Shown: piece after piece, positions 2,045 to 63,666 of the stretch
Layout of the letters: each line of letters begins with the position of its first letter
How positions within the stretch are numbered: the stretch's first letter is position 1
Source of the DNA: Pontiellaceae bacterium B1224
GTDB taxonomy: Bacteria > Verrucomicrobiota > Kiritimatiellia > Kiritimatiellales > Pontiellaceae
Direction of reading: 5' to 3'
NCBI GenBank assembly: GCA_029432815.1
Contig: JAROBA010000024.1
Coordinates: 1 to 64,000, forward strand
Length of the DNA stretch: 64,000 nucleotides
Program-made: the position numbers and the translations under genes
The notes under the pieces: generated by a model
The model's input: only the letters and a program-made list of their open reading frames with translations
What the model was told of the DNA's origin: nothing
Databases searched by the model: none

Positions 2045-2059
2045 TTCCAACCATTGGAA
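2045..2059. repeat. 15-bp palindrome TTCCAANNNTTGGAA (copy 1)
   Basis: Perfect copy with centre CCA, in the intergenic stretch after the GNAT gene. See the finding on this family. Confidence 0.9.
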
Positions 2060-2203
2060 GTAGCCCAAGCAATTCATGGGCGGTGATGCCCATTCCACCA
2101 CTACTCGACGGGATGTATTAACCACAAATGAGCACAAGAGAGCGGCGCGTTATACGGACATCTTATGACGGTCGACTAATTACACAACTTCAGATCACGA
2201 CTT

Positions 2204-2218
2204 TTCCAATGATTGGAA
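2204..2218. repeat. 15-bp palindrome TTCCAANNNTTGGAA (copy 2)
   Basis: Perfect copy with centre TGA, 15 bases beyond the stop codon of the GH16 gene, 159 bases from copy 1. Confidence 0.9.
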
Positions 2219-2233: not shown

Positions 2234-3076
2234 TTAGAAACCGGTGTCAGCAGGGTTCTGCTGAAACACGCGCACATAGTCGATCTCGAACTTGGTGGGA
2301 AATTCTGTTTTAGATGGATCTCCCCCGTTATCGCCGCCAATCGCCAGATTGATCAATAAATACTGCGGTTGTTGAAAGGGATTTGCGGGCCCTCGATCGG
2401 TTGGATTAATGGTTTTGGTCAGATCAATGGTATTGAGCAGCGCATCGTCCAGATAGAGCTTGATGGTCTGGTTGTCCCAGTCCATCCGCCAGATATGGAA
2501 ACGCTCGTCCCAGTTCGGGTCACCAAACGATTTAACGGCGGTCTTGGTGGTGTCCCACTTTGCTTTCCAACGTTTTTCAGTACCCCAGCACGCATTGGCA
2601 AGAACGTTGCCTCCATAACATTCCATCAGGTCGATTTCGCCATTGCTCGGCCATTCGCCGTCCACACCAAGGAACCAGAGTGCCGGCCAAAGCCCGGCTT
2701 CCGTTTTGATCCGCGCTTTAATCTCAAAGCGTCCATACTTCCACTGGTGTAGCTCTTTAGTGTTCAGACACGATGAAGTATATTCGATGAAGCGCCGGTT
2801 CTCTTGCCAGCTTCCGCTTTCATCGGAGTATTGCGGGTTTGGTTTACGTTCTTTGCGGCCTTCAATCACAAGAAAGCCGTTTGTGCAGAACGCATTCTGC
2901 GGTTGATACCATTGCAGCTCATGATTCCGAACGAAACCCTTCTCAAAGGTCCAGTTTTCCGGATTCGGTGCACCATCGATTTCAAACTCGTCCGCCCAGA
3001 CCAATTGATACGCCTGAGTGGCCGCACAGAATAATGCGGAGGCTGTGAACGTTGCGAATACAGCTCGATATCTCAT
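2234..3076 (-). CDS. Secreted glycoside hydrolase family 16 (laminarinase/beta-glucanase type)
   Basis: Protein of 280 residues that begins with a signal peptide (about residues 1-22, ending ATQA-YQ) followed by a single GH16 jelly-roll domain. The catalytic signature E-x-D-x-x-E is present as GEIDLMECYG (about residue 145), where the first Glu is the nucleophile and the last the acid/base. Aromatic strands such as GLWPALWFLG and the C-terminal IDYVRVFQ are typical of laminarinase-like members. It should cleave beta-1,3 (or mixed) glucans outside the cell or in the periplasm. There is no carbohydrate-binding module. It lies downstream of metA on the same strand with a 31-base gap. Exact substrate is not determinable. 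Confidence 0.9.
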   Translation of the reverse strand: MRYRAVFATFTASALFCAATQAYQLVWADEFEIDGAPNPENWTFEKGFVRNHELQWYQPQNAFCTNGFLVIEGRKERKPNPQYSDESGSWQENRRFIEYTSSCLNTKELHQWKYGRFEIKARIKTEAGLWPALWFLGVDGEWPSNGEIDLMECYGGNVLANACWGTEKRWKAKWDTTKTAVKSFGDPNWDERFHIWRMDWDNQTIKLYLDDALLNTIDLTKTINPTDRGPANPFQQPQYLLINLAIGGDNGGDPSKTEFPTKFEIDYVRVFQQNPADTGF

Positions 3077-12251: not shown

Positions 12252-14774
12252 CTACGAAACCGCGATGTTTACGAGGCGGCCGGGGACTACGATGACTTTG
12301 CGGACGGTTTTGCCTTCGAGCCAGGATTGAACCTTTTCGGAGGCCATGGCGATGGCTTCGATCTCGTCTTTTGACGCTGAAGACGGAACCTTGATCTGGT
12401 CGCGGACTTTGCCGTTGACCTGTACGGCGAGCTGGAGCTCATCGCGCTTGAGAGCTTCTTCGTTCACGACGGGCCAGTCGGCGTTCATCACACCGGCGTC
12501 ATGGCCGAGTTCGACCCACAACTCTTCGGCAATGTGCGGCGCGAATGGTGAGAGCAGAAGCACTACGTTGACCATCGCATCGCGGAAAACAATCTTGGCG
12601 GATTCAGACGAATCAGCGGAAATTTTCAGGTGATCGATGGCGTTCATCAGTTCCATAATGGCCGCGATGGCGGTGTTGAAGGTGAACGCGCCGTCGAGCC
12701 CTTTGGTGATCTGCTGAATCGTTTCGTTGGTCTTGCGATAGAGATCGCGCTCGGCGTCGGCCATTTTTCCAATGTCTGGAAGTTTGCCTTCGACCGCTTT
12801 AAGCAGATCGAGGTTTTCGGCGATGCGGCGCCAGATGCGTTTGAGGAAACGCGATGCGCCTTCGACGCCGGTATCCTGCCATTCGGCTTCTTTTTCCGGC
12901 GGGCCGATAAAGAGCGTGTAGAGGCGAACGGTGTCGGCACCATACTTTTCGAGCAGCTCTTCGGGACTGACGACATTGCCCTTGGATTTGGACATTTTGT
13001 ACAGATTTCCGTCGGGCCCTTTTTTGCAAATCATGCCCTGCGTGAACAGGTGCTTGAATGGCTCGTCGAAATCGATCAAGCCGAGATCCTTAATGGCTTT
13101 GGTGAAGAAGCGCGCATAAAGCAGATGCAGAATCGCGTGCTCAATGCCGCCGATATATTGATCGACCGGCATCCATTTATTGGAGATTGCGGAATTAACG
13201 GCCTGAGTAGAATCCTGTGCGCTGAGATAGCGCAGATAATACCACGACGAATCCACGAACGTATCCATGGTGTCGGACTCGCGGGTGGCGGGTTTTCCAC
13301 ACTTTGGACACGTGCAATTCATGAAGGCTTCGCTGGATTTCAGCGGCGATTCGCCTTCGGCTTTAAATTCCACATCGGTCGGCAGCAGGATCGGGAGGTT
13401 TTCCTCTTTTTCCGGAACCACACCGCAGGATTCGCAATAAACCATCGGGATCGGTGCGCCCCAGTAGCGCTGACGGGAAATCAGCCAGTCGCGGAGACGA
13501 AAATTAATTTTACCCTTTCCGAAGCCTTTTTCTTCAGCGAGGGCAATCATCGCTTTGATGGCTTCGCGGTTTCCAAGGCCTGTAAATTCGGCGGAATCCA
13601 TGCAGGTGCCGTCTTCGGTGTACGCATCTTCCATCTCTTCCAGCACGAGTGAGTTGTCCGGATTCTGGATGGAAAGCTTGATGGGCAGATCATATTTTTT
13701 GGCGAAGGCAAAGTCGCGCTGGTCATGCGCCGGAACCGCCATAACGGCGCCGGTGCCGTACATGAGGACATAGTTGCCGACCCACAGCTCAATCTTTTCG
13801 CCGTTGTAGGGATTAATCAGATAGCGCCCCGTGAAGCGGCCTTCCTTTTCAACTTCGTCGGCTTCGCGGTCGAGATTGGTCAGCTTCGAGCTGGCCTTGA
13901 TAAATTCGAGCACTTCGGCTTCCTGCGGCAGACCGGCGACGAGGCTTTTCAGTTCCGGATGTTCCGGCGCGAGGGCCATATAGGTGCAGCCGTAGATGGT
14001 GTCGACGCGGGTGGTGTAGCAGGCAATTTTATCGACGTTGTCCCCTGCCCCGTCTTCGCGCGGCACAATCGGAAAATCAATTTCGGCGCCCTCGGAGCGA
14101 CCGATCCAGTTTTTCTGCATGGTTTTCACGCGGGTCGGCCAGCCGTCGAGCGTGTCGAGATCGTCGAGCAGGCGCTGGGCGTATTCGGTGATTTTAAAGA
14201 ACCATTGGTCCATTGATTTCTGGTCGACTTCGGAATCACAGCGTTCGCAAAGCCCATCAACCACTTGCTCGTTGGCGAGTACGGTGGCGCACGACGGGCA
14301 CCAGTTGACATTGGAATTTTGTTTATAGGCGAGGCCCTGTTTATAGAACTGCAGGAAAAGCCACTGGGTCCATTTGTAATAATCCGGCATGCAGGAGGTG
14401 ACTTCCTTGTCCCAGTCATACATGCAACCCCAGGCGCGAAGCTGTTCCTTCATGGTGGCAATGTTGGCGGTGGTGTATTCCGCCGGCGGCGTGCCGGTTT
14501 TAATGGCGGCATTTTCCGCGGGGAGGCCGAACGAATCCCAGCCCATCGGGGTGAGTACATCGAAGCCCTGCATTTTTTTGTAGCGCGCGACGGCATCGCC
14601 GATGATGTAGTTACGCCCGTGCCCGACGTGAAGCTTCCCCGACGGATACGGGAACATCATCAGGCAGTAGTACGGGTTTTCCGCCGCCGCCAGATCGGTT
14701 TTAAAATCGCCGTTTTCGTCCCAAAAATTCTGCCACTTCTGCTCAATCTCACCAAATGGATAGTCTTCTCTCAT
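12252..14774 (-). CDS. leuS: Leucyl-tRNA synthetase
   Basis: Cytoplasmic class I synthetase charging tRNA-Leu; about 840 residues, the usual bacterial length. The HIGH motif appears as [18 protein letters not shown] (about residue 45) and the KMSKS loop as [15 protein letters not shown] (about residue 600); the CP1 editing domain and a zinc-type CxxC segment ([13 protein letters not shown]) lie between. The C-terminal domain ends [20 protein letters not shown] at 14774 ([14 protein letters not shown]) is preferred because GGAG lies just upstream and the family starts there; the frame also allows TTG at 14792. The gene end is next to the Fic module. Confidence 0.97.
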
Positions 14775-14839: not shown

Positions 14840-14854
14840 TTCCAAAGGTTGGAA
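14840..14854. repeat. 15-bp palindrome TTCCAANNNTTGGAA (copy 3)
   Basis: Perfect copy with centre AGG, in the divergent promoter region between leuS and the EF-hand gene, 66 bases upstream of the leuS start. Confidence 0.9.
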
Positions 14855-21304: not shown

Positions 21305-21908
21305 CCTGCCTCCTCTTCACCATTTTCGGTCGGCCGGTGAGAATATCGGCCGCAATGTGGAGCTGAATTTCTTCAACGGTCAGCGTTATCCCGCCGCCAT
21401 TGCTTCCGCCAAAATGCGTGAACGAAACGGCCAGCTGATCCGTCGTACCCTCCTCATTTCCAAGGGTTGGAACCTCTTCCAAGGTTTGGAAAACCGAATC
21501 TTCATTGGCGGTTACAACATCATTGGCAGTGAATGATTCCAGCGAATATTCTTCATCCAGAACCAGCACCTTTTCATAAAGGCTCGTATCGGTTTCCGAA
21601 GATTGGAACATGGAATCGCCCGTTTCCTGATTTTGGAAAGCCCGCGTTTCAAGCATTCGGACTTTGCGCGTTTCCGGATCGATCCGCAGATCAACCTGCA
21701 CCTTGCGGCTCATGGCCATCATTCGCGCTTCCGCCATCAGCTGCATAATTTTACGGCCCTCTTTACGCAATGCATGCTTCGGCGAAGTCATGGCATCGAT
21801 GGTCGGAATACTGATGGAGGTAATGACGATAATAATCGCCATAACCACCAAGAGTTCGATCATGGTGAAGCCACGCTTCAAAGCGTGAATCGTTGGGCCA
21901 GTCGGCAT
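21297..21908 (-). CDS. gspH: Type II secretion minor pseudopilin GspH
   Basis: Protein of 203 residues with prepilin signal LKRG/FTMIELLVVMAIIIVITSISI (Glu5 present) and a GspH/FimT-like continuation (KEGRKIMQLMAEARMMAMSRKVQVDLRID as alpha-1 and first strands). It contains two palindrome copies read as FQTLEEVPTLGNEE. An AAGGA site lies upstream of ATG at 21908. GspH is a minor pseudopilin that sits between the tip complex and the GspG filament. Confidence 0.83.
   Translation of the reverse strand: MPTGPTIHALKRGFTMIELLVVMAIIIVITSISIPTIDAMTSPKHALRKEGRKIMQLMAEARMMAMSRKVQVDLRIDPETRKVRMLETRAFQNQETGDSMFQSSETDTSLYEKVLVLDEEYSLESFTANDVVTANEDSVFQTLEEVPTLGNEEGTTDQLAVSFTHFGGSNGGGITLTVEEIQLHIAADILTGRPKMVKRRQDD
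21458..21472. repeat. 15-bp palindrome TTCCAANNNTTGGAA (copy 4)
   Basis: Perfect copy with centre GGG, inside gspH; only 4 bases from copy 5. Confidence 0.9.
21477..21491. repeat. 15-bp palindrome TTCCAANNNTTGGAA (copy 5)
   Basis: Perfect copy with centre GGT, inside gspH; centres of copies 4 and 5 are 19 bases apart, close to two helical turns. Confidence 0.9.
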
Positions 21909-22518: not shown

Positions 22519-23733
22519 CTATCCGGCCGATGTACTCATGGCCATGATGCCCTGCATCATGCCGATTACAATAAAGCCGACCACCACGGCAAGAATGACG
22601 ATGAAGGCCGGTTCGAGCACGCTGACAAATCGCTCCGTGCTGGCCGTCACTTTATCTTCATAGCGCTCCGCCACTTTATCGAGCATGGTTCCGAGCTCGC
22701 CGGAATCCTCGCCCATGGAAACCATGCGGGCGGCGAGTTCGGGGAAGAGCGGATCGTTCTGCAAAACGGGGCCCATCGGTTTACCGCCCTGCACATTTTC
22801 ATAGACTTGGCGCATCAGCTTTCGCAACGCCGCATTCGAGAGGGTTCCGCCCGTGATGGAAATGGCCTGTAGAATCGGCACCTGCCCTTCGAGCAACGAT
22901 GCAAGCATACGGCAGAAGCGGCTCGTTTCGGCCTCGGCCAACAGGTTTCCAAGGACTGGAAATTTCAGCAATTTGGTGCCCCAGGCCACTTTGCCCTCTT
23001 CGTTGCGCGTCCACCATTTGAACCCGGCAAAAATGAGCACCAGAATGAGCGGACCGGACCACCAATATTGAATACTGAAATCGCTGAAGGCCATCAACGC
23101 GCGCGTTGACCCCGGCAGGAGTTGTCCCGTGTCTTCAAAAAGCGAGGTGAGTTTCGGGATCACCACCATCATCATAACGGCCACCACCACAGCACCCATG
23201 AGCAATAGCAGCGAAGGGTAGATCATGGCCGTTACCACTTTTGAACGCAGTTTCTGACGGCGTTCGAGCAACGCGGCAACACGGCGCATAATGAGATCGA
23301 GCGAGCCGGAGGCTTCGCCACCGCGCACCATATTGGAATAGAAGCGTTCGAATACTTTGGGGTGCCGCGCCAGCGCATCTGCAAACGAAGCCCCGCCCGT
23401 GACATCTTTCCAAACCTCGGAAAGTACCTCTTTGAACCGCTCGTGCGAACAGAGATCGGCCTGCGTTTTCAACGCCTGTTCCAATGGAATTTTGGCATCG
23501 AGCAATGCCGATGTTTCCGACGAAAACTCCATCAGCTGCTGGGTGGTAATCCGGCTGCCGATCGATTTTGAAGCAGAAGAAAACCCTTCGCCGGACGCGC
23601 TGTCGGAAATATTGAGAACAATCAGCCCTTTCTGCTGCAGCTGCTGAACCGCCCGCGTTTCGGAGGGCGCTTCAATAATTCCGGTCCGCGCTTCACCGCC
23701 GGAAGTAATCGCTTTGTAGGAAAACTTTCTCAT
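22519..23733 (-). CDS. gspF: Type II secretion inner-membrane platform protein GspF
   Basis: Protein of 404 residues with two GspF/PilC cytoplasmic domains (about 65-190 and 265-390) and three membrane segments. Typical strings are ALLDAKIPLEQALKTQ, GGEASGSLDLIMRRVA, GEDSGELGTMLDKVA and the C-terminal EPAFIVILAVVVGFIVIGMMQGIMAMS. GspF transmits GspE motion to pseudopilin assembly. Its ATG overlaps the TGA of the four-helix-bundle gene. Confidence 0.95.
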   Translation of the reverse strand: MRKFSYKAITSGGEARTGIIEAPSETRAVQQLQQKGLIVLNISDSASGEGFSSASKSIGSRITTQQLMEFSSETSALLDAKIPLEQALKTQADLCSHERFKEVLSEVWKDVTGGASFADALARHPKVFERFYSNMVRGGEASGSLDLIMRRVAALLERRQKLRSKVVTAMIYPSLLLLMGAVVVAVMMMVVIPKLTSLFEDTGQLLPGSTRALMAFSDFSIQYWWSGPLILVLIFAGFKWWTRNEEGKVAWGTKLLKFPVLGNLLAEAETSRFCRMLASLLEGQVPILQAISITGGTLSNAALRKLMRQVYENVQGGKPMGPVLQNDPLFPELAARMVSMGEDSGELGTMLDKVAERYEDKVTASTERFVSVLEPAFIVILAVVVGFIVIGMMQGIMAMSTSAG

Positions 23734-31289: not shown

Positions 31290-31666
31290 AGCTCTCCCCC
31301 CTTGGCATCATCCAGCAACTGGCGCAGTTCATCTATTTCTGCAGCGGAAATCTGATCGGAACCGAGCAGCTGCTGCAGCGCCATCGCTGGCCTTCCACAG
31401 AACGCATTTTGAATCAGCTCGCGCAAGACAGGCGTCGCGGTCTGTTCGCGCGATACCTTGGCATTCCAGATGTGGGTGACCCCGCTGGTTTCTCTTCCAA
31501 CGAGCCCTTTCCGTTCCATACCTTGCAAGACGGTAAGCACGGTGGTGTAGGCACGCGTCTTTTGATCTGGCATCGATTCGAGCACCTCACGCGCGGTGGC
31601 GTGACCCTTTTCCCACAAAACCCCCAACACCTGCAATTCCAACGCGGACGGACTCAGTTTCCCCAT
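31286..31666 (-). CDS. BlaI/MecI/CopY-family repressor
   Basis: Protein of 126 residues with the family's winged helix: LSPSALELQVLGVLWEKGHATAREVLESM, then AYTTVLTVLQGMERKGLVGRE (recognition helix and wing). These dimeric repressors are cut by the partner M56 protease. It is directly upstream of and coupled to that protease gene. Two dyads at 31683-31714 lie just before its start and are good candidates for its own operators. Confidence 0.93.
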   Translation of the reverse strand: MGKLSPSALELQVLGVLWEKGHATAREVLESMPDQKTRAYTTVLTVLQGMERKGLVGRETSGVTHIWNAKVSREQTATPVLRELIQNAFCGRPAMALQQLLGSDQISAAEIDELRQLLDDAKGGEL

Positions 31667-32542: not shown

Positions 32543-32557
32543 TTCCAAGGATTGGAA
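32543..32557. repeat. 15-bp palindrome TTCCAANNNTTGGAA (copy 7)
   Basis: Perfect copy with centre GGA, between ureD and vapB, 11 bases after the ureD stop. Confidence 0.9.
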
Positions 32558-37133: not shown

Positions 37134-37885
37134 TGGCCTTCCTCCTGATGATTAAAGCTTTGTTCTATGGCTTGTTGCAGCGCGGCTTCGGGCGAATCGG
37201 TCGTTTGAATGAGGGCGTTGCCGCCTTTGACCGTTCCCGTACCGCCGATTTTGACGAGCTCGACTTGTTTGGATTCACCGGGTTCAAAACGAATGGCGGT
37301 GCCGGCGGCAATATTGAGCCGCATGTTGAAGGCTTTGGCGCGATCGAACAGCAGGGCCGGATTGGTTTCGAAAAAGGGATAGTGCGAGCCGACCTGTACC
37401 GGGCGGTCGCCGTGGTTGAGCACAATGAGGGAGATGGTTTCGCGACCGGCGTTTAGCTCGAGCTCGCCTTCCAGACATTGGAACTCGCCGGGTTTATCGG
37501 AGCTTTCGTTATCAACCGGAATGGTGCCGCATTGCCGAACGAGGCCGGAGCCGTAGAGCACCAGTTTGGGTTCGCCTTGTTGGCGGCTAATCGGTTGATG
37601 CACCGTGATCAGTTTGGTGCCGTCGGGAAAAGTTCCTTCCACCTGCACTTCCGGGAGCATACCGGAAACGCCGGGCATGACATCGTCGAAGCCGAGCAGC
37701 TGTTTGCCGCGGTCCATCAACTGAGCAACCGAGCAGCCTTCGCGGATGAATTCGAGCAGCTGCGCGGAAAGCAGCGCAACGGTTTCGACATAGTTAAGTT
37801 TCAGACCCCGTGCATAGCGTTTCTGTGCCAGAAAGCCGGCATTATGCAGCATCAGTTTTTCAATTTCGCGGGGTCCTAAATGCAT
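37130..37885 (-). CDS. ureAB: Urease gamma-beta fusion subunit
   Basis: Protein of 251 residues. Residues 1-100 are the gamma domain ([64 protein letters not shown]) and residues 115-225 the beta domain ([64 protein letters not shown]). Fusion of the two small subunits is known in several bacteria, notably Helicobacter. Good GGAGG ribosome site. First urease gene after the beta-barrel gene. Confidence 0.96.
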
Positions 37886-45395: not shown

Positions 45396-45410
45396 TTCCA
45401 ATCATTGGAA
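45396..45410. repeat. 15-bp palindrome TTCCAANNNTTGGAA (copy 10)
   Basis: Perfect copy with centre TCA, 16 bases upstream of the GntR gene start. Confidence 0.9.
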
Positions 45411-45687: not shown

Positions 45688-45702
45688 TTCCAATCGTTGG
45701 AA
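45688..45702. repeat. 15-bp palindrome TTCCAANNNTTGGAA (copy 11)
   Basis: Perfect copy with centre TCG, 18 bases after the stop of the Minf_1886-like gene. Confidence 0.9.
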
Positions 45703-45719: not shown

Positions 45720-46154
45720 TTAAATTTTGTCAGTCGTATTTTTTGTGTGTGCGCGAGACGCGGTGCTCTTTGGACGGACCACCGGCTGTTTCGGCTGAAA
45801 CGGCTGGATGAAGGCTTCGTGGAAATCGTAGCCTCCCATGAAATCTTCGATGGAATCTTCTTCGGTTTTTCCGAGCAGACCTTCGTCGACAAGATTAAAG
45901 ACGATGTTTCCGAAATCGACGCATTCGGTGATCCCCCACTCGGAAAGTACGCGTTTTGTGACAGGGCCGTATTCTTTAAGGGCATATTCGCGCATACCAT
46001 CCAGCAGTTCGGTGCCGGAAACGTGGCGGGGTTTATCGAGTGCTTTTACGGTGTGGTCCAATCCCTCGCGCACAAAAATGTAGGCCTGCGCTGTGTAGCG
46101 ATCGTCTTTGGTGATGATCGGCGCCAGCAAATCAAAAATGGATGGATTATTCAT
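45720..46154 (-). CDS. Minf_1886 family protein
   Basis: Protein of 144 residues. The body, with YIFVREGLDHTVKALD, RHVSGTELLDGMREYALKEYGP and FGNIVFNLVDEGLLGKTEEDS, matches the Minf_1886 family, small conserved proteins of Verrucomicrobiota and Planctomycetota with no known function. The basic C-terminal 25 residues are extra. It follows the HIT gene with a 2-base gap, so they form one unit. Confidence 0.8.
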   Translation of the reverse strand: MNNPSIFDLLAPIITKDDRYTAQAYIFVREGLDHTVKALDKPRHVSGTELLDGMREYALKEYGPVTKRVLSEWGITECVDFGNIVFNLVDEGLLGKTEEDSIEDFMGGYDFHEAFIQPFQPKQPVVRPKSTASRAHTKNTTDKI

Positions 46155-48134: not shown

Positions 48135-48149
48135 TTCCAATGGTTGGAA
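48135..48149. repeat. 15-bp palindrome TTCCAANNNTTGGAA (copy 12)
   Basis: Perfect copy with centre TGG, between the aspartate aminotransferase stop codon and its terminator. Confidence 0.9.
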
Positions 48150-48152: not shown

Positions 48153-49349
48153 TTACGCGTTCAGAGCTTCCGCAATTGAATCGCAGACATATTCGATGTT
48201 TCCGGAGGTGAGGCCGGCAACGTTGATGCGTCCGCCGTTCACAATGTAGATGCCCTTGTTTTCCTTGAGCCAGGCAACCACTTCGTTAGAAAGACCGCTG
48301 AAGGAGAACATGCCCCGCTGCGTTTTAATGAACGAGAAGTCCTGTTCAACACCACGGGCTTTAAGGCCGTCCACCAACAGGATACGCATCGCTTTAATGC
48401 GGTCGCGCATCTCCGCCACCTCGCCGATCCACTGATCATAAAGAGCGGCATCGTCGAGCACCGCACTGGCCGCCAAACCGCCGTGCGCCGGCGGATTGGA
48501 ATAGTTTACGCGAACCACCAGTTTGGCGTGGCTCAGGGCAACGGCGTTTTCTTCCGCAGTCGGGCTGACAATCGTCAGAGCACCGGTACGCTCATTATAA
48601 AGTCCGAAGTTTTTCGAGAACGAGCTGGCAACGAGGAAGTCGATACCGGCGGCTGCAAATTTTTCAACGGCCACACGGTCTTCTTCGATACTGTCGCCAA
48701 AACCCTGATAAGCAAAGTCAAGAAACGGCGTCCAGCCTTTCGCCTTGGCGACTTCTACCACCTTGCTCCACTGATCGCCGATCAGATCAACGCCGGTGGG
48801 GTTATGGCAGCAAACGTGCATCAGCACAATATCGCCGGCCGGCACAGTGGAAAGCGCGGCGATCATTCCGTCGAAATCCACGTCTTTAGTGGCCGGGTCG
48901 TAATACGGATAATCCGAAATCGAAAAACCGGCGGCGGTGAAGATCCCTTTGTGATTGGCCCAGGTCGGGGTGCTTACCCAGAGTCTGGCATCCGGATTAA
49001 ACTTTTTCAGCAGGTCGGCTCCAACCCGCAGGGCTCCGGTTCCGCCGGGGGTCTGCATGGTGGCCGCGCGTTTGGCACTGATGACTTCACTATCCGCGCC
49101 GAAGAGCAGCTTCTGCACATTGGCGGCATAGGCCGGACTTCCAGGGATTGGAAGATAGCCTTTGGAGGTTTCTGTCTCTGCCAGCTTCACCTCGGCCGAT
49201 TTGATGCATTTGAGAATCGGGGTGGTTCCATTATCGTCTTTGAACACACCAACGCCCAGGTTCACCTTGTTCGGGTTTTCATCGTTTTTAAATGCCTCGG
49301 TCAGGCCCAGAATGGCGTCCGCCGGTGCGGCTTCAATTTCTTTCCACAT
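48153..49349 (-). CDS. aspC: Aspartate/aromatic aminotransferase (class I, AspC/TyrB type)
   Basis: PLP enzyme of 398 residues that interconverts aspartate and oxaloacetate (and possibly aromatic amino acids). It shows the Ia-type N-terminus WKEIEAAPADAILGLTEAF, the LHVCCHNPTGVD-type motif (LMHVCCHNPTGVD) and the PLP lysine in SSFSKNFGLYNERTGAL, plus the substrate Arg near the C-terminus. ATG at 49349 (MWKE) is preferred: GGAG lies 6 bases upstream, and AspC proteins start here; two more ATGs lie just upstream (49355, 49361). Confidence 0.95.
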   Translation of the reverse strand: MWKEIEAAPADAILGLTEAFKNDENPNKVNLGVGVFKDDNGTTPILKCIKSAEVKLAETETSKGYLPIPGSPAYAANVQKLLFGADSEVISAKRAATMQTPGGTGALRVGADLLKKFNPDARLWVSTPTWANHKGIFTAAGFSISDYPYYDPATKDVDFDGMIAALSTVPAGDIVLMHVCCHNPTGVDLIGDQWSKVVEVAKAKGWTPFLDFAYQGFGDSIEEDRVAVEKFAAAGIDFLVASSFSKNFGLYNERTGALTIVSPTAEENAVALSHAKLVVRVNYSNPPAHGGLAASAVLDDAALYDQWIGEVAEMRDRIKAMRILLVDGLKARGVEQDFSFIKTQRGMFSFSGLSNEVVAWLKENKGIYIVNGGRINVAGLTSGNIEYVCDSIAEALNA

Positions 49350-49411
49350 ATTCATCTCCATAACTTGTAATTGCGCGACACCCTATCGGCATGCTCGCGT
49401 ATTACGAGTTC

Positions 49412-50642: not shown

Positions 50643-51941
50643 ATGGATAATCAAACCCAGAATAACAAGCTCCCCGAGAAGGTAGTTCGGCGCCATGCCG
50701 AGCTGCTCGAAGAGATACTTCCCGAACTCTCAAAACTGGTCCTTGAAGAAGGCCGGCCGGCCGATGCCCTGCTGAATGCTTTCCTGCGCACGCGCCGGGA
50801 ACTCGGTTCGCGCGACCGCCGTTTTCTATCGCAGGCGGTCTTTTCCTACTTTCGCTGGTATGGCTGGACCGTTATCAAACTGCAGCTCAACATACAGGAA
50901 GCCTGCCTGGTTGGCACCCTGCTCGACTCCACCGAACTGCCCTACAGTTTCCAATATCTGGAAACCCGCTGCAAACTGCCTTTCAAAGTCGAGCCTCTCG
51001 GACACCTGAATACGGAAGAACAGCGCAAAAAACTCAATGAGCTTTTTAAGGACACCGAAGGATTCCAACCACTGGAACTGGGCGATCTGGTGATTCCGGA
51101 GTTTGGCAACGTGGTTGATCCCAAGCGCGAAGCTGACCTGATTGAATCGTTCCAGAAACGCCCCCCCGCCTGGATTCGGACCCGCTCCGGCACAGAGGAG
51201 ATGGTGAAAACATTGGCAGATCAGCAGATTCAGGCAACCGTTCACGAACGGGTAAAAGACGCCATCGCAGTGAATACCGGTATCAGCCTGCAACACGTGC
51301 TGTCCAAACAATCCGGCCAGTTCATCGTTCAGGACCTGGCGTCTCAATGCGTCGGATTGGTTGCCGACCCGCAGCCCGACGGCGATTGGTGGGATTGCTG
51401 CGCAGGAGCCGGCGGAAAAGCCATGCAGCTGATGGATCTGATGCAGGATGGAAAGGTTCTGGCCACAGATGTTCGAATTCCGGCCCTGAAGGAATTGAAA
51501 AAGCGTACTCGCAAGCACGGTATTAAGAACATCCGAACACAGCTCTTCAATGCCGCAACCGATGAACCGTTCACTAAAACGTTTGATGGCGTTATGGTGG
51601 ATGCGCCCTGCTCCGGCTGGGGCACCTGGAGCCGCAACCCGGATGCGCGCTGGCGCTCCTCCCGCCGCGATGTCATTCAATGCTCCACCCGCCAGCTTAA
51701 AATCCTGAACAACGTCACCTGGTGCGTGAAACCCGGCGGAGTATTAATTTATGCCGTCTGCACCTTCACGCAGCCCGAAACGGAAGAGGTGATCGTGAAG
51801 TTCCTTGGTCAGCATCCGGACTTCCGCCTGGAACCGTTCGCGAACCCGATGACCGGCGAACAAACCAATGGCCAGCTTCAGATCTGGCCCTGGGAAGGCC
51901 CCGGCGATGCCATGTTCATCGCCCGTTTTAAACGTTCGTAG
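50643..51941 (+). CDS. RNA m5C methyltransferase (NOL1/NOP2/Sun, RsmB-like)
   Basis: Protein of 432 residues. N-terminal NusB-like helical region (about 5-80, LLNAFLRTRRELGSRDRRFLSQAVF), then the SAM-dependent methyltransferase: motif I WWDCCAGAGGKAMQLMDLM, motif IV with the first catalytic Cys VMVDAPCSGWGTWSRNP, and motif VI YAVCTFTQPETEEVI with the nucleophile Cys. It should make 5-methylcytosine in rRNA (16S C967-type by analogy). Divergent from the NDK-like gene. A REP-like pair overlaps its stop codon. Confidence 0.93.
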   Translation: MDNQTQNNKLPEKVVRRHAELLEEILPELSKLVLEEGRPADALLNAFLRTRRELGSRDRRFLSQAVFSYFRWYGWTVIKLQLNIQEACLVGTLLDSTELPYSFQYLETRCKLPFKVEPLGHLNTEEQRKKLNELFKDTEGFQPLELGDLVIPEFGNVVDPKREADLIESFQKRPPAWIRTRSGTEEMVKTLADQQIQATVHERVKDAIAVNTGISLQHVLSKQSGQFIVQDLASQCVGLVADPQPDGDWWDCCAGAGGKAMQLMDLMQDGKVLATDVRIPALKELKKRTRKHGIKNIRTQLFNAATDEPFTKTFDGVMVDAPCSGWGTWSRNPDARWRSSRRDVIQCSTRQLKILNNVTWCVKPGGVLIYAVCTFTQPETEEVIVKFLGQHPDFRLEPFANPMTGEQTNGQLQIWPWEGPGDAMFIARFKRS

Positions 51942-51994: not shown

Positions 51995-52315
51995 TTAATC
52001 CAGAGTCTTGAAATACTCAATATCGGTGTTTTCGAAAGTAACACTGCCGAGACGCAATTGAATGGTTTCCGCCGTCGGCGCGGGGAGCACCAGCGAGTTG
52101 AGCACCAGCTTTCCGGTAAATTCCTCGTCCCAGCCCCGTAGACGCAGACGGACTCTGCGATTAAGCACAATATGAAATTTTTCTTCCACTCGCTGGAAGG
52201 CCAGTTTTTGCTCGGAAAGGAATTGGAACCAGCCCTCTTCTCCCAGATCACGAGGGAATTCGAGCAGGTCGTCTGCTGCCAAATCAAAATCAAGCTGGTT
52301 CTGTCGTTCATCCAT
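51995..52315 (-). CDS. Conserved-looking small soluble protein
   Basis: Protein of 106 residues from ATG at 52315 (MDERQNQLDFDLAADDLLEF). A longer frame reaches 52534 but would overlap the promoter and start of the divergent protease gene, so the short form is preferred. It is acidic, with a central VLNRRVRLRLRGWDEEFTGKLVLNS and VLPAPTAETIQLRLG that suggest a small beta barrel, as in PilZ- or Sm-like folds. No family is recognised. Confidence 0.55.
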   Translation of the reverse strand: MDERQNQLDFDLAADDLLEFPRDLGEEGWFQFLSEQKLAFQRVEEKFHIVLNRRVRLRLRGWDEEFTGKLVLNSLVLPAPTAETIQLRLGSVTFENTDIEYFKTLD

Positions 52316-54222: not shown

Positions 54223-54237
54223 TTCCAACCATTGGAA
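54223..54237. repeat. 15-bp palindrome TTCCAANNNTTGGAA (copy 13)
   Basis: Perfect copy with centre CCA, ending 8 bases before the ATG of the first gene of the exosortase-locus run, an operator-like position. Confidence 0.9.
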
Positions 54238-54245: not shown

Positions 54246-54854
54246 ATGATTGCAAACCACATACATGATGCGCTGGGACAGGTACGGCGGCTGCAGGGAT
54301 TGATCCTGGAAAAGCGCAAGTTTACCGGCTATTCCGGCAGCGCACGCATACTGGGCGGATCGGTTGCCCTGCTCGGCTGTGTGCTGATGGCGCTCTATTC
54401 CGAATCCTACGCTGCGCACCTGCTCGGCTGGGGCTGCATTCTGGTGGTGGCGCTGGCCGTGAACTATGGCGCGCTCATGCTCTGGTTTATTCAGTTGCCG
54501 GACCGCGAGCGCACCGGGCGCACCATTGCGCCGGCGTTCGATGCCGTCCCCCCGCTGGCGGTCGGTGCGGTTTTAACAGCGGCCCTCTTGTTGCGGGGGA
54601 ACCCCGATCTCCTCTACGGCTCGTGGATGTGCCTCTATGGCCTCGCGCACACCTCTTGCCGAACGGCCCTGCCGAAAGAAAACTGGTATCTGGGGTTCTA
54701 CTATTTGACGGCCGGCTCTTTTTTCCTGCTCTGGCCGGGAACTAATTTCATGATCCCGTGGCCGGCCGGGTTAGTATTCCTCGTCGGCGAATGGATCGGC
54801 GGAACTATATTCCACCGCCACAAAGTCGAGGCAATGGAGCATTACGATGACTAA
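54246..54854 (+). CDS. Membrane protein at head of coupled gene run
   Basis: Protein of 202 residues with a short helical N-terminus and five or six membrane segments. It ends in a polar His-rich tail (FHRHKVEAMEHYDD). The next gene, a winged-helix regulator, overlaps its end by 8 bases. Membrane protein plus small DNA-binding protein pairs of this layout occur in many bacteria without a settled function. No family is named with confidence. Confidence 0.65.
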   Translation: MIANHIHDALGQVRRLQGLILEKRKFTGYSGSARILGGSVALLGCVLMALYSESYAAHLLGWGCILVVALAVNYGALMLWFIQLPDRERTGRTIAPAFDAVPPLAVGAVLTAALLLRGNPDLLYGSWMCLYGLAHTSCRTALPKENWYLGFYYLTAGSFFLLWPGTNFMIPWPAGLVFLVGEWIGGTIFHRHKVEAMEHYDD

Positions 54855-55218
54855 AAAAGTAAACGCCTTCCAGGCATTGGAAAAAATCTTTCACGAACCC
54901 AGCCGCCTCGCCATCATGTCGGCGTTGTGCATGGCGACCGACGGACTCACGTTCAGCGAACTCAAAGCCGAGTGCGACCTCACCGACGGCAATCTCAACC
55001 GCCACCTCAAGGTGCTGAAAGAAAACGAAGCGGTCCGGGTGAAGAAGGAATTTGTCGATGACAAGCCCCGCACCACGGTCTTCATCACCCGGCAGGGCCT
55101 CAATCGGTTCAACGACTATCTCGAAGCCCTCGCCGATGTGATGAAGCAGGCCCGCAAAGCCCTGCCCAAAGAAAAAACAAACACCCTTTCAACCCTTGGC
55201 AAAAAGGCCACCACGTAA
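54847..55218 (+). CDS. Winged-helix transcriptional regulator
   Basis: Protein of 123 residues with an ArsR/MarR-like winged helix: FHEPSRLAIMSALCMATDGLTFSELKAECDLTDGNLNRHLKVLKENEAVRV is the helix-turn-helix (recognition helix around GNLNRHLKVL), and DDKPRTTVFITRQGLNRFNDYL the wing and last helix. No metal-site cysteines. It overlaps the membrane gene upstream and is the only regulator in the run, so it may control the exosortase-locus genes. Confidence 0.85.
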   Translation: MTKKVNAFQALEKIFHEPSRLAIMSALCMATDGLTFSELKAECDLTDGNLNRHLKVLKENEAVRVKKEFVDDKPRTTVFITRQGLNRFNDYLEALADVMKQARKALPKEKTNTLSTLGKKATT

Positions 55219-55934: not shown

Positions 55935-56628
55935 ACCACCGAAACAAGTCCGCATTCCGAAAGACCCGTTTACCGAACAGTTCCAACCCTTGGAAAACGA
56001 CCGCCTGTTCAGCGTGGTCGATGCCACGCTGAAGCGCCCCGCGCAGATGGCGCATGAACTAATCCACGGCACAGGCTGGAAAGCGCCCCTGTTTCTAACA
56101 CTGGTGCTGCTGTTTTGCCTGACCGTCCTGGGCATCATCATGGGCAGCTTTTCCGGCGGCGCACAGTTTTGGGCGGTGCCGCTCAAAATTGTGACAGGCA
56201 CCGTCATCAGCGCGCTGATCTGCATGCCAAGCCTCTACATTCTTCTCTGCCTCTCCGGCGGCGGGCAGAGTTTCCCGCAGGTCGGTCGTATGCTGCTGCT
56301 CGGCCTGACCCTCGCAGGTATTCTGTTCATCGGCTTTGTGCCCGTCGCGTGGATCTTTTCGCAGGCGACTGAGTCGGCTGTTTTCATGGGCGTGCTCTAT
56401 CTGCTCGTTTGGGGCATCGGCCTTTTCTTCGGATTGCGGCTGATGAAGACCGCGCTCGAATTCCTCAACAAACGCAGCCTGGGCACCCTGAACTTGTGGA
56501 TGTTCATCTTTGCAATGGTGCTGCTGCAAATGAGCACGACCCTGCGTCCAATCATTGGAAAAAGCGAACCGCTGAAGTTCAACGAGAAGATGTTTTTCAT
56601 GGCGCACTGGAGCGAAGCCCTGCGCTAA
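55915..56628 (+). CDS. YIP1-like/LRPxIG-type membrane protein 1
   Basis: Protein of 237 residues with a soluble N-terminus (FTEQFQPLENDRLFSVVDATL) and about six membrane helices. The C-terminal QMSTTLRPIIGKSEPLKF followed by EKMFFMAHWSEAL matches the C-terminus of the two downstream membrane proteins (QLSWNLRPFIGAP; QLSWILSPFL), so the three are related. Proteins of this type are sometimes annotated as WH2-domain proteins in related phyla, with no known role. It contains palindrome copy 14. Confidence 0.65.
   Translation: MEEENIEPPKQVRIPKDPFTEQFQPLENDRLFSVVDATLKRPAQMAHELIHGTGWKAPLFLTLVLLFCLTVLGIIMGSFSGGAQFWAVPLKIVTGTVISALICMPSLYILLCLSGGGQSFPQVGRMLLLGLTLAGILFIGFVPVAWIFSQATESAVFMGVLYLLVWGIGLFFGLRLMKTALEFLNKRSLGTLNLWMFIFAMVLLQMSTTLRPIIGKSEPLKFNEKMFFMAHWSEALR
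55981..55995. repeat. 15-bp palindrome TTCCAANNNTTGGAA (copy 14)
   Basis: Perfect copy with centre CCC, inside the gene, read as FQPLE. Confidence 0.9.
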
Positions 56629-59481: not shown

Positions 59482-60560
59482 AGCGCATCATTCCATCTTT
59501 TTTTGCCCTGACCGCCCTGCTCATTGGTCTGCCGCTGCTCGGCGTTTGGGTGGCCGGGCACGATATTTCGACCTATCTTGAGTTCCCCCCGCGCACGCAC
59601 TATGTCGAACACGCCCCGTTTTCCTGGCCGGTATTCATTGGGCTCGCTCTTGTGATTCTAGCGGTGATGGCTCCTTTTCTGATTCGTGTGGGTAGGGCGT
59701 GCTCGCCGAGCGCGCCGCGGACGGTTCGTCGAACCGTCCCTACCTGGGGCTGGCTTTCCTTCGCACTCGGCATTCTGTTCTGGATTCTGGCGTGGACGCG
59801 TTTCCAATGGTTGGAATTTTTCCAGCTCTACACCTTCACGCCGCTATGGATCTGCTACATTGTGGCGATCAATGCCCTGACCTACCGCCGTGTCGGCCGC
59901 TGTTTGCTGACGCATGAAACGCGGTTCTTCATCGCGCTCTTTCCGCTGAGCGCCGCCTTCTGGTGGTTTTTCGAATATCTCAACCGCTTTGTGCAAAACT
60001 GGTGGTATACCGCCGGGGCGGACTTTTCTCCGCTGCAATACTTCATCGCCGCCACCCTGCCCTTTGCCACCGTGTTGCCCGCCGTACTCTCCACCGAAGA
60101 ATGGCTGGCTTCCCATCCGCGCAGTTCCGCCGGGCTCGAATTCAACACCCCCATCCGGTTCACCAAACCCAAACGGATGGCTTGGATTACACTGCTCATC
60201 TCCGCCACAGGGCTCTTTTTCATCGGCTGGTTTCCCGACACTCTCTTCCCCCTGCTGTGGGTTGCACCGCTCCTGCTGTTGATGGCCTTCCAATGTCTGG
60301 AAAACCGCCCTTCGTTTTTTCCAGAGGTTGGAACCGGTGACTGGCGGCGTATTTACCGCCTGGCCCTCGCGGCACTCATCTGCGGTTTTTTCTGGGAGCT
60401 GTGGAACTGGCACAGTCTGGCAAAGTGGATTTATGAAGTTCCTTATGTGCATCGCTTCCAGATTTTTGAAATGCCGCTGCTCGGCTACGCCGGCTATCTC
60501 CCCTTCGGCCTCGAATGCGCCGTCATCGCCGAGCTGATCCGCCAAAGGCGGGCATCATGA
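59478..60560 (+). CDS. Polytopic membrane protein with a palindromic in-frame insert
   Basis: Protein of 360 residues starting in the ATGA overlap with the radical SAM stop. Nine to ten hydrophobic helices with many Trp residues (FEYLNRFVQNWWYTAG, GFFWELWNWHSLAKW). Residues 72-89 (GRACSPSAPRTVRRTVPT) are encoded exactly by a 54-base palindromic element and break an otherwise hydrophobic boundary. It overlaps the exosortase start by 4 bases. It contains copy 15 of the palindrome (read FQWLE). Function unknown, probably part of the same unit. Confidence 0.7.
   Translation: MKRIIPSFFALTALLIGLPLLGVWVAGHDISTYLEFPPRTHYVEHAPFSWPVFIGLALVILAVMAPFLIRVGRACSPSAPRTVRRTVPTWGWLSFALGILFWILAWTRFQWLEFFQLYTFTPLWICYIVAINALTYRRVGRCLLTHETRFFIALFPLSAAFWWFFEYLNRFVQNWWYTAGADFSPLQYFIAATLPFATVLPAVLSTEEWLASHPRSSAGLEFNTPIRFTKPKRMAWITLLISATGLFFIGWFPDTLFPLLWVAPLLLLMAFQCLENRPSFFPEVGTGDWRRIYRLALAALICGFFWELWNWHSLAKWIYEVPYVHRFQIFEMPLLGYAGYLPFGLECAVIAELIRQRRAS
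59691..59744. repeat. 54-bp palindromic element inserted in frame
   Basis: Ends GGTAGGG (59691-59697) and CCCTACC (59738-59744) are perfect inverted repeats, with an internal hairpin ACGGTTC-GTC-GAACCGT (59721-59737). It is exactly 18 codons and lies inside a membrane-protein gene, so it appears to be a small mobile or REP-like insert tolerated in frame. Confidence 0.7.
59802..59816. repeat. 15-bp palindrome TTCCAANNNTTGGAA (copy 15)
   Basis: Perfect copy with centre TGG, inside the membrane-protein gene, 57 bases after the 54-bp element. Confidence 0.9.
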
Positions 60561-61060
60561 TCGCCCGCCTGCCCCGCCCATTATTCGTTGCGATGGCCGT
60601 TATGATTCTCACCAACACCCTCTTTTCCATCGCGCCGCTGGAGCGGTTGCTGCAGGTACCATCGGGTTTCATGGCTTCTTTTTTTCTGGGGGCACCGGCT
60701 GAGTTTGACGGAACCGTCGTGCAGATTTTCACGCAACCGCTGCTTACGGTCAGTACGGCCTGCAGCGGGGTCCGGCTCTTTGCCATTCTCGCCGGGCTGG
60801 GTGCGGGCTACTGGTGCGGGCGGCGTCCCGCGCGCTGGCTGTCCCTACTGCCGCTTTGTTATGTCATCACCCTCTTCAGCAACTCCGCCCGCATTGCCGC
60901 CGCCTGGCAGTTCCGCCGAATCAGCGATGGCCTGCTGCCGGATTGGCTGCAGGAATTTGCGCACATGGGCATCGGCATGGTCTGGAGCCTGACCATTATC
61001 GCCGCCCTCGTCTATTGGATATTCCGCCAGCCACAACCCGTAAAGGAAACGACCCGATGA
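60557..61060 (+). CDS. xrtK: Small exosortase, XrtK type
   Basis: Protein of 167 residues with about six membrane helices. The exosortase catalytic set is visible: Cys in TVSTACSGVRLFAILAG, Arg in TLFSNSARIAAAW and His in EFAHMGIGMVWS. Exosortases are membrane transpeptidases that recognise PEP-CTERM-like tails. Its small size and its neighbour, a single large VIT-like protein with a C-terminal sorting tail, match exosortase K, which is dedicated to one target (family knowledge). ATG at 60557 in an ATGA overlap with the upstream gene. Confidence 0.75.
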   Translation: MIARLPRPLFVAMAVMILTNTLFSIAPLERLLQVPSGFMASFFLGAPAEFDGTVVQIFTQPLLTVSTACSGVRLFAILAGLGAGYWCGRRPARWLSLLPLCYVITLFSNSARIAAAWQFRRISDGLLPDWLQEFAHMGIGMVWSLTIIAALVYWIFRQPQPVKETTR

Positions 61061-63666
61061 AATCGTTCGAGAAGATCAATCCCGCCATCAAAGCCAATCC
61101 CCTGATGATTCTGCTGACCATGGTGATCCCCCAGCTGCTGCTGACCCTTTTCCGGGCGCACGATCTTTACCTGATTCGCGAGGCCATCGAAGAACACCAT
61201 GGACTGATCCACCTCAACTATCTGAGCTTTCCGCTGCTGCTTTCCGCACTATCATTGGCGATGCTTTTCTGGAGCCGGCACCACAAACGGGATGTGCCTC
61301 GACTGGCTATGCTCGGTTTTTTCCTGTTACAGACCGCCGGGCTGGTCACGTTTCTGATGTCGCTGAATGACCTGATTCCGGATGGGGTCGATGAGTGGAT
61401 TGTTCCGATGGGCACCTTTATGATGGTGCAGCTCGCCAGCTATATGCCCGGTCTATTTTTCGGATTCATTTGCGTGGCCAACATTCGCTGGTTTGGCAAC
61501 CTGGCCGGAAACATCGGCAGCAGCATCGGTCTGCTCCTCTTCACCCCCGGCGCCCTGTTTGTTTTTGTGAATGCATTTCCGCTGTGGAATCTTCCGGAAA
61601 CCTTTGTCATTGCGGTCTTCGTGATCACCACCCTCATCACCGCCTTTGCCTTTCTCCAGCTTATGCTCTGGCTGTCCGGCAAGGTACGCGGCGGTTGGAT
61701 TGCCACGCTGGTCTTTGCGCTTCTGTTTCCGTTGGGCGGACTGGCGCTGAACCATTGGATTCCCTTCCCCGCGGATCTCCAGCATTGGGGGTTCTACGCG
61801 CTGGCAATTGCCAATGGATTAATTCTTCTTTGGGCCAGCCTGTCGTCGGGCAAGGGCAATCCGTTCTGTGCGTGGATGACGGCCTTCAGCTATCCGTTCA
61901 CCTGCTATTTCTTTTTTCTCTTCCTCCCCTTCCTGCCTTTCTCGATCCTGGCCATGATTGCCATTGGCTCCGGATTCCTGATTCTCACCCCGCCCATTCT
62001 GTTCGTTCTGCATACGCGCCGGCTGGTGCTGCAGTTCCAAACCTTGGAAACCCGCTTTTCAAAGCAAAAGCTGATCGCCGGTTTTCTCGTGGCCTTCCTG
62101 CTGGTTCCGGTTGCCTACGTCGGCAGGGCGCTTCACCATAAACAGGTATTTTTCCAGACATTGGATCGCGTCTATGCAGCGCCGATCAACCCATCCGAGC
62201 CCCTGCCCTCGCCCAAGGTTTCGGCCTATGCGCTACAGAAACTGAAGGACTCCAAAGCAGGCATCTACATTCCCATTCTGTCGGAAACCTATAACCGCAT
62301 TGTCTTTGGCGGCATGGTGCTGCCCGACCGCAAGATCAAGCAGCTCGAAAAGCTGCTGCTCGACGAAACTTCCAATGATTGGAACGAATTTGATGATTTC
62401 AGCTTCTATTCCTTCTTCACCGACCAATCCACCCGCATGTCCGGTCGGAACGTACGCCCGCCGAGCCGCGAGGTGACCCTGACCGATGTGACCTGCACCT
62501 CGGAACAGTCCGACGGAACCATCGAAGCAACCGTTCTGCTGACGATGCAGCCGCATCACAACTGGGGGCAGGCGGAGTATACCCAGTACATTACTCTTCC
62601 CGACGGGGTCTTTGTTTCCGGCTACGAACTGAAGATCGGCGATGAAATGGTGCCGGCGCGCATGTCGGACCGCCGGGCGGCGATGTGGGTCTATCATATG
62701 ATCCGCGACCGCGCGCGCCGCGATCCCGGCCTCGTGGTGTACGACCGGCCGAACTGCCTGCGCCTTTCCGTCTTCCCCTTTGCGAAAGAAGAAGAGCGGC
62801 AGTGCGCCCTCCGCTTTCTCTACCCGGAAGGCATGACGCCTTCGGTTTCCATCGGAAACGAGGTCGTCCAATTGCCGGGCGGCCAACCGGCCAGCACGCT
62901 GATTCAAACTGCCGCCGGTAGGCAGGCCGTCTGCATTCCCGCCGAGCGGGCGCAACAAATGCCCGGTGTTTTCCGAACCTTGGAAAAAATCGAACTCACC
63001 GGAACCGATGCCACGCCCGGTTATTGCCCGGAATGGGATGTAAAGCGCGCGCTGCTCGACTACTGGAACTCCGGTGACGAACAATTGGAAACGGTTCCGT
63101 GGTTCATCACCGAAACCGAACAGCCGGTGGTCGAGTTTGATCGGGCGGACTGGTGGCTGCCGCTGATCCCCGACAGCGGATGGAGCACGATTATGTCCGG
63201 AAAAATCGAAGTGCTGCCCATTCAATGCGGCGAGCAGGTTCGCGTCATCCCCAAACAACGCGGCGGTGTGGCCGTGTTCGATTCTTCCGATACCACCGAC
63301 TTTTCGGCCGATGCCCAGCTCGGAGCCGACTCGCGCTATGCCAAAGCCATCGATCTCTGGCAGGACTGGTGGCAGACCCAGCTCCATCCGGATCAGGAAG
63401 ATGCCCTGAGGAAAGAACTACTGCTCGCCGCGCGGGAAATCAATATCCTGATTCCTTCCACCGCCTTCCTCGCCGTTGAAAGCGATGCACAAAAAAAGGC
63501 GCTGAAGGAAGCCGAAAATAAATCGCTCAAGAGTAATAAGGCACTCGGATTCGATGAGTTTGAAGAAGAACCGATCGATTCGCCGGAACCCGGCCTATTG
63601 ATGTTGATGCTTTTAACCCTGCCGATTATTCACTGGTGGCAGGACAGGAGGAACCGTAATGCGTAA
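61057..63666 (+). CDS. Large VIT-like membrane protein with C-terminal sorting tail (MSEP-CTERM type)
   Basis: Protein of 869 residues. Residues 15-390 hold about ten membrane helices. The following soluble part has a VIT/vault-like domain: VTLTDVTCTSEQSDGTIEATVLL, GVFVSGYELKIGDEMVPARM and AMWVYHMIRDRARRDPGLV. The C-terminus has the tripartite exosortase tail, SPEPG then LLMLMLLTLPIIHWW then QDRRNRNA. Its neighbour is the XrtK-type exosortase, so it is the probable single substrate. The family is usually written with MSEP; here the motif reads SPEP. Starts in an ATGA overlap with xrtK. Contains palindrome copies 16 and 17. Confidence 0.7.
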   Translation: MKSFEKINPAIKANPLMILLTMVIPQLLLTLFRAHDLYLIREAIEEHHGLIHLNYLSFPLLLSALSLAMLFWSRHHKRDVPRLAMLGFFLLQTAGLVTFLMSLNDLIPDGVDEWIVPMGTFMMVQLASYMPGLFFGFICVANIRWFGNLAGNIGSSIGLLLFTPGALFVFVNAFPLWNLPETFVIAVFVITTLITAFAFLQLMLWLSGKVRGGWIATLVFALLFPLGGLALNHWIPFPADLQHWGFYALAIANGLILLWASLSSGKGNPFCAWMTAFSYPFTCYFFFLFLPFLPFSILAMIAIGSGFLILTPPILFVLHTRRLVLQFQTLETRFSKQKLIAGFLVAFLLVPVAYVGRALHHKQVFFQTLDRVYAAPINPSEPLPSPKVSAYALQKLKDSKAGIYIPILSETYNRIVFGGMVLPDRKIKQLEKLLLDETSNDWNEFDDFSFYSFFTDQSTRMSGRNVRPPSREVTLTDVTCTSEQSDGTIEATVLLTMQPHHNWGQAEYTQYITLPDGVFVSGYELKIGDEMVPARMSDRRAAMWVYHMIRDRARRDPGLVVYDRPNCLRLSVFPFAKEEERQCALRFLYPEGMTPSVSIGNEVVQLPGGQPASTLIQTAAGRQAVCIPAERAQQMPGVFRTLEKIELTGTDATPGYCPEWDVKRALLDYWNSGDEQLETVPWFITETEQPVVEFDRADWWLPLIPDSGWSTIMSGKIEVLPIQCGEQVRVIPKQRGGVAVFDSSDTTDFSADAQLGADSRYAKAIDLWQDWWQTQLHPDQEDALRKELLLAAREINILIPSTAFLAVESDAQKKALKEAENKSLKSNKALGFDEFEEEPIDSPEPGLLMLMLLTLPIIHWWQDRRNRNA
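62035..62049. repeat. 15-bp palindrome TTCCAANNNTTGGAA (copy 16)
   Basis: Perfect copy with centre ACC, inside the MSEP-type gene, read FQTLE, at the membrane/soluble boundary. Confidence 0.9.
62370..62384. repeat. 15-bp palindrome TTCCAANNNTTGGAA (copy 17)
   Basis: Perfect copy with centre TGA, inside the same gene but in a different frame (read SNDWNE). Confidence 0.9.

Follow-up and report, generated by a model that had tools for sequence, protein, structure and literature searches.

The dimeric chromosome-organising or silencing proteins Noc, ParB, KorB and MatP act at palindromic sites (parS for ParB, matS for MatP) that lie at several to many places, and the uptake sequences of Neisseria and Pasteurellaceae occur in hundreds to thousands of copies, some of them by terminators, that differ among relatives. 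Two further systems are relevant here: HIP1 and the alternative HIPs of cyanobacteria are palindromic words that occur in gross excess throughout the genome and that some relatives have lost (PMC4390886), and the sites of Lrp are 13 to 17-bp inverted repeats, clustered and two or three helical turns apart, to which the protein binds cooperatively, bending or wrapping the DNA (PMC2995911). Here we describe a 15-bp interrupted palindrome, TTCCAANNNTTGGAA, found in many copies in a 64,000-nucleotide stretch of Pontiellaceae bacterium B1224 from the class Kiritimatiellia (contig JAROBA010000024.1, positions 1 to 64,000; hereafter the window). We propose, at a probability of about 60%, that this word is the recognition site of a single putative cooperative homodimeric protein of Kiritimatiellia, of a global or nucleoid type and Lrp-like in its mode of action. 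The literature searched, including papers on Pontiella, contains no name or mention of the motif, the search covering few subscription journals.

An initial annotation of the window had counted 17 perfect copies of TTCCAANNNTTGGAA; all 17 starts proved exact, and each of 100 dinucleotide shuffles contained 0 copies (mean 0.00). The relaxed form TTCCA-N5-TGGAA has 27 copies in the window compared with a shuffle mean of 0.07. The annotation had also reported copies with one altered base, which do exist, with several coordinates a few bases off (correct starts 12767, 22947, 37469, 49139 and 54868) and with the sites at 52184 and 60319 missing. The genome-wide count that it had proposed as a check gave 1177 copies in the 5.38-Mb assembly of the window's genome (G000) versus 0 for the pattern read backwards, and the motif is abundant beyond the window.

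The anatomy of the site was studied in a 639-kb sample of the same genome, which was also used for the counts of RNA pairing and of close pairs; the sample includes nine short contigs, totalling about 20 kb, that lack both G and C and were taken as N, and these contigs were excluded from the helical-period tests, synonymous shuffles and site densities described below. A gap of 3 bp between the arms is found in 150 copies, compared with 0 or 1 copies for each other gap from 0 to 11. The TCC and GGA trinucleotides are almost invariant, and 148 of the 150 sites have C or G as their central base, so that the three central bases, all of which had been taken as variable, are not free at the middle position. 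The frequent changes are those of the innermost A to G (151 times the expectation), of the next A to G (57 times) and of the outer T (about 55 times). The centres of the two half sites (TCC/GGA) are ten base pairs apart and therefore lie on the same face of the helix, as for a dimer. The preferences in the spacer and flanks vary by lineage, with T-S-A in the window's genome, G-S-C and T flanks in genome G054, and C flanks in genome G416.

Several lines of evidence place the constraint at the level of DNA. In 861 genes (918 kb) delineated by our own simple gene caller, we found 163 perfect copies with a G/C centre, compared with a mean of 4.8 and a maximum of 10 in 60 shuffles of synonymous codons; moreover, the sites are built of codons that are less common than their amino acids would predict (0.291 versus 0.394 synonymous usage, 380 codons). 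The genic copies start at codon position 0 in 49 cases, position 1 in 70 and position 2 in 44, and the reading FQxLE, previously noted as frequent, is one of three frames. Among one-sided A-to-G changes in genes, taken in the mRNA sense, the inner pair gives 31 G-U versus 32 A-C combinations and the next pair 5 versus 17; G-U is not favoured over A-C, hence RNA pairing is not what is conserved, and an RNA hairpin or terminator was rejected on these counts. None of the five sources searched has an Rfam match at a site. The anatomy, the inner-pair changes, the synonymous shuffles and the codon rarity thus agree with the earlier suggestion of a dimeric protein site TTCCA-N5-TGGAA that is free of protein-level conservation, and the sequence data support the prediction that the word is a DNA-level dimer site.

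The spacing of neighbouring sites, which goes beyond the earlier observations, follows the helical repeat, and the phased arrays of related families are the strongest clue to the nature of the word. In the window's genome, pairs closer than 40 bp are in excess (23 versus 4.3 expected), and the 120 pair distances between 15 and 200 bp show a helical period with z of 10.97 and phase 0 at 10.5 bp, a z value reached by 5 of 5000 jittered sets; this periodicity is weaker than in other families. In many other families of the class, arrays comprise 2 to 11 sites with steps of 31 or 32 bp, equal to three turns of the helix, and occasionally of 22 bp. The array genomes and the stretches taken from them were selected for their sites. 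Triple arrays, defined as runs of three perfect sites joined by linkers of 15 to 18 bp, were identified in 22 of 30 chosen site-rich genomes (0 in the control), with the highest number, up to 130, in genome G186. The array steps in G416 are 31 bp (38 cases), 32 bp (28) and 74 bp (1), with up to 11 sites per array; those in G054 are 31 bp (29), 32 bp (17), 27 bp (1) and 63 or 64 bp (3); and additional 22-bp steps occur in G129 and G143. All 46 linkers sampled in G054 are distinct, and near-identity among them (5 versus 2.1 in shuffled sets, SD 2.3) is not clearly above chance, which argues that the phase is maintained independently. The arrays are intergenic in 20 of 25 cases in G054 (3 in genes, 2 at edges) and in 9 of 14 cases in G416 (2 in genes, 3 at edges). 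Their neighbours are mixed and include PheS, PfkB, SecA, CbiM, transaldolase, a sulfatase, a GntR regulator and an FMN reductase; this mixture makes a narrow regulon unlikely and favours a global or architectural role. In two different families, arrays are located at the start of GspK-like (type II secretion) genes or closely precede it (L215:9359-9466 and L386:3770-3974), and two viral contigs carry sites with a 31-bp step, three of them at L238:3429-3505 and two at L239:10589-10634.

Within the window's genome the copies lie both inside and between genes. The density of relaxed sites is 1.25 per kb in intergenic regions versus 0.50 per kb in genes, and its strongest peak, 4.0 per kb, is located 10 to 20 bp past stop codons and not before starts. 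Of 84 intrinsic terminators scored at up to 90 bp from a stop, 17 carry a site ahead of the stem. The median distance from stop to stem start is 27 bp with a site and 28 bp without one, and the site therefore occupies space that is already there. Two stretches of this genome that contain nuclease, WYL, transposase, fucosidase and sulfatase genes, L113 (G000:C140:1-20000) and L120 (G000:C204:1-20000), have 0 and 2 relaxed sites, respectively; they may represent newly acquired DNA that lacks the word.

The distribution of the word among genomes is patchy, and in the genomes sampled high counts are confined to one class. The 29 rows of the family comparison, including the window's genome, range from 0 to 1177 copies (0 to 2 in the controls). 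In a phylum sample of 387 genomes, the pattern TTCCAANSNTTGGAA has a match in 105; by a manual tally, among the 130 relatives from Kiritimatiellia, 32 have 57 to 1319 copies, 5 have 5 to 31 and 93 have at most 4, and the maximum outside the class is 4. The 39 genomes reached via LeuS loci, mostly from other phyla, contain one copy (4 genomes) or none (35); among named organisms, the LeuS sequences closest to that of the window come from Pontiellaceae bacteria B12227 and B12219, Pontiella sulfatireligans and metagenome-assembled genomes of Kiritimatiellales, which places the organism with Pontiellaceae. A single genus spans 0 to more than 1000 copies, which suggests that the system is readily gained or lost. 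Approximately 46 kb each of the low-copy relatives G017 and G009 revealed no strong replacement palindrome. No common target suggestive of a core regulon was seen in the low-copy genomes G031, G037 and G035, where 9 of the 11 listed perfect copies with a G/C centre are genic.

Between close relatives the sites are retained above background and yet turn over fast. Aligned sites of the window's genome are perfect in 7 of 15 cases in B12219 (2.5 expected), 3 of 13 in G002 (0.8 expected) and 4 of 4 in B12227 (0.4 expected), that is, in 14 of 32 cases for the three relatives pooled (3.7 expected). Among the 42 spacer bases of these retained sites, 7 have changed; seven additional targets together yield 2 perfect sites of 9. 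Starting from B12227, 4 of 9 sites are perfect in the window's genome, 1 of 5 in B12219 and 2 of 9 in G002. For the site-rich targets, both directions pooled give 44 perfect sites of 132 compared with 13.5 expected, the two directions being reciprocal and not independent. In the first alignments, non-identical genic places differ mostly by ungapped substitutions, gaps being found in 1 of 8 cases (B12219) and 3 of 9 cases (G002). B12227 (G029) also has a separate dispersed and apparently palindromic repeat of about 78 bp (L081:8861-8939) that matches many places, several of them on both strands.

The region within 170 bp upstream of leuS was compared in 22 sequences, namely the window and 21 fetched loci. 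A perfect site is present in seven of them (window, L001, L008, L009, L012, L017 and L072), with LeuS identities to the query down to 72%, and a one-off site in four (L003, L005, L007 and L010). The window, L007 and L072 have a second, partly degenerate site at a distance of 42 or 43 bp, equal to about four turns. As a shared location of the site, the leuS upstream region is suggestive only.

Alternative explanations were weighed against these data. A classical transcription factor with a very large regulon, for which the arrays would be promoter operators and the genic and 3' copies tolerated by-products, would agree with the leuS site pairs, which stand by promoter-like boxes (judged by eye), with the several G054 arrays in gaps before starts and with the arrays at GspK genes; however, the density peak after stops, the unrelated genes beside the arrays and the rare codons of which genic sites are built make it improbable. 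The word could also resemble HIP1 in its origin, as a methyltransferase target within a palindrome that is multiplied by biased mismatch repair or methylation-linked selection and involves no lattice-forming protein. The gross over-representation that marks a highly iterated palindrome (1177 versus 0 copies, and 163 versus 4.8 in genes) is found here as well, together with patchiness and loss among relatives, copies in and between genes, and mostly ungapped substitutions. This origin nevertheless appears quite improbable, since a methylation ratchet leaves unexplained the 31/32-bp arrays with unrelated linkers and helical periodicity; the present word differs from HIP1 in being an interrupted 15-bp palindrome with a fixed gap and helically phased arrays, and its twelve fixed bases plus a G/C centre are long for a methyltransferase site.

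A DNA-uptake-like tag read by a competence receptor would account for the copy number, the loss in relatives, the placement ahead of terminators and the few sites in the two stretches with mobile or catabolic genes, and in copy number, terminator placement and difference among relatives the word indeed resembles the uptake sequences of Neisseria and Pasteurellaceae. Known uptake words are not palindromic and act singly, whereas the present word is palindromic and phased; neither property is expected of a tag and phased arrays would have no reason, which makes this explanation very improbable. Still harder to credit is a REP-like hairpin mobilised by a transposase of the Y1 (RAYT) type, or propagation of the arrays by copying: the G416 arrays are indeed mosaics of shared 31/32-bp modules, but the 46 linkers of G054 all differ and the aligned genic sites are mostly ungapped. 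A search of the site-rich genomes G416 and G189 for a Y1 transposase gave 0 matches; on this we reject spread by such a transposase, and together with the alignments it makes the earlier idea of a replicating mini-hairpin unlikely.

A role as a chromosome-segregation mark, also proposed at first, is not borne out in the one-contig relative G121, where sites with a TCA spacer are evenly spread; for 40 TCA-type sites counted among its 542, distribution over 8 bins gave a chi-square of 4.8, which also speaks against an origin/terminus (MatP/matS) mark. The orientation of the TCA-type sites in G121:C1 forms same-strand stretches along the chromosome, perhaps by strand skew of the central base. An extra ParB/Noc paralogue was likewise rejected: a ParB_N match is present in 39 of 40 genomes, usually as one copy, and second matches occur in site-rich and site-poor genomes alike. 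The word thus shares with the sites of Noc, ParB, KorB and MatP palindromy and presence at many places, and differs from them in its far higher copy number, its arrays, the even spread of a site subset and the lack of a tracking ParB paralogue. A CRISPR array does not fit many dispersed short palindromes with 16/17-bp linkers; cas genes were not sought.

We therefore return to a cooperative dimeric protein that acts in the manner of Lrp. Two half sites on one helix face and neighbours spaced by two or three turns, in and between genes, are the signature of such a DNA-binding protein. In the proposed mechanism, a homodimer would recognise the two TCC/GGA half sites, and dimers on adjacent sites would interact, so that neighbouring sites are maintained at a distance of two or three helical turns; several families have regular arrays, up to 11 sites long, with a lattice of 31.4 bp. 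The protein would bind at hundreds to thousands of places, favouring intergenic gaps such as those between stop and terminator and upstream regions such as that of leuS, and would most probably act globally as a regulator of the nucleoid type by wrapping or looping DNA. Sites would arise and decay mostly singly by base substitution and would fade in lineages that presumably lost the protein. The likeness to the Lrp/AsnC family comprises the 15-bp inverted repeat, for which dimer binding is predicted, and the spacing of neighbours by 31/32-bp and 22-bp steps, with a weaker periodicity in the window's genome; by this analogy an Lrp-like mode of action is moderately supported, and membership of the putative protein in the Lrp family is a guess. 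One Lrp-like ORF was found in G416 (L386:11363-11842, E 1e-8 using small words, missed at default settings).

Several observations weigh against this proposal. Known Lrp/AsnC sites are degenerate with an AT-rich centre, in contrast to the sharp word with a G/C centre and hundreds of copies seen here. No binding protein was found for the word, and no convincing Lrp gene in the 1.02 Mb of the window's genome examined; the Lrp-like ORF of G416 adjoins an aminotransferase-like ORF (named by eye) and has no array alongside. When only pair distances of 15 to 45 bp are considered, a period of 10.5 bp does not stand out in the window's genome, and triple arrays are absent from six genomes of the genus Pontiella as well as from G121 and G352, two of three genomes of the same order. 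In G416, near-identical partners exist for 55 of 66 linkers (9.9 expected), which indicates that arrays there were also copied and shuffled; its arrays L381-L393 draw their linkers from common 31/32-bp modules used in either orientation, a pattern that recombination among arrays would produce. A scan of 37 proteins beside arrays gave no shared function or evident regulon. Finally, turnover is fast: of the aligned B12227 sites, P. sulfatireligans keeps 0 of 9 and L008 keeps 0 of 8, and no site precedes leuS within 170 bp in 11 of the 22 sequences (L002, L004, L006, L011, L013, L014, L015, L016, L018, L019 and L020). Two of these, L002 (B12219) and L014 (P. sulfatireligans), belong to site-rich genomes, so the leuS site is not obligatory.

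The sites of the window are listed in Table 1.

Table 1. Copies of the palindrome and related sites in the window.
Feature	Position	Strand	Remark
Perfect site	2045..2059		13 bp past stop of ORF 1555..2031
Perfect site	2204..2218		15 bp past stop of ORF 2234..3076(-)
One-off site	12767..12781		Within leuS
Degenerate second leuS-upstream site TTCCGACCTTTGAAA	14797..14811	-	10/12 fixed bases; 43 bp from upstream site
Perfect site upstream of leuS	14840..14854
Perfect genic site	21458..21472		First of pair 19 bp apart
Perfect genic site	21477..21491		Second of 19-bp pair (with 21458)
One-off site	22947..22961
Perfect site in GspE/PilB-like ATPase gene	25842..25856		Intact arms in B12219 and B12227; single change in G002
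Perfect site	32543..32557		11 bp past stop of ORF 32569..33366(-)
Perfect genic site	33062..33076		One change (TTCCAG) in B12219; not retained in G002
Perfect genic site	35100..35114		Arms kept, spacer changed in B12219 and G002
One-off site	37469..37483
Perfect site	45396..45410		Genic according to simple gene caller
Perfect site	45688..45702		17 bp past stop of ORF 45720..46154(-)
Perfect site	48135..48149		Between stop of ORF 48153..49361(-) and terminator-like hairpin of that ORF
One-off site	49139..49153
One-off site	50949..50963
One-off site	51063..51077
TTCCA-N5-TGGAA, both inner bases altered	52184..52198
Perfect site	54223..54237		8 bp upstream of ORF 54246..54854
One-off site	54868..54882		Past stop at 54854, within overlapping next ORF 54847..55218
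Perfect genic site	55981..55995
Perfect genic site	59802..59816
One-off site	60288..60302		31 bp before 60319 site
One-off site	60319..60333		31 bp after 60288 site (three helical turns)
Perfect site in MSEP-CTERM protein gene	62035..62049
Perfect site in MSEP-CTERM protein gene	62370..62384

The gene at 60814-63666, which contains the last two sites, encodes an MSEP-CTERM sorting-domain protein (TIGR04286). Elsewhere in the window, positions 36692-36987 match the Rfam 5' ureB sRNA opposite the urease alpha gene, which may merely reflect conservation of the coding sequence, and positions 28431-31666 contain a BlaR1-like sensor gene with a small ORF, 31286..31666, just upstream. A second over-represented palindrome, GCCCC-N8-GGGGC / CCCCG-N2-CGGGG, has 20 copies in the 639 kb of the window's genome.

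Going beyond the proposed regulator, we tentatively consider a class-specific bacterial chromatin, in which putative dimers on a 31.4-bp three-turn lattice at gene boundaries chromosome-wide would serve as insulators or wrapping stations, in an array mode or, as in Pontiella, a dispersed mode depending on the family. If this is true, helically phased arrays genome-wide would make part of bacterial nucleoid architecture readable from sequence. The word can be used as bait for finding its protein, and its patchiness within a genus offers natural experiments on the gain and loss of a global DNA-binding protein.

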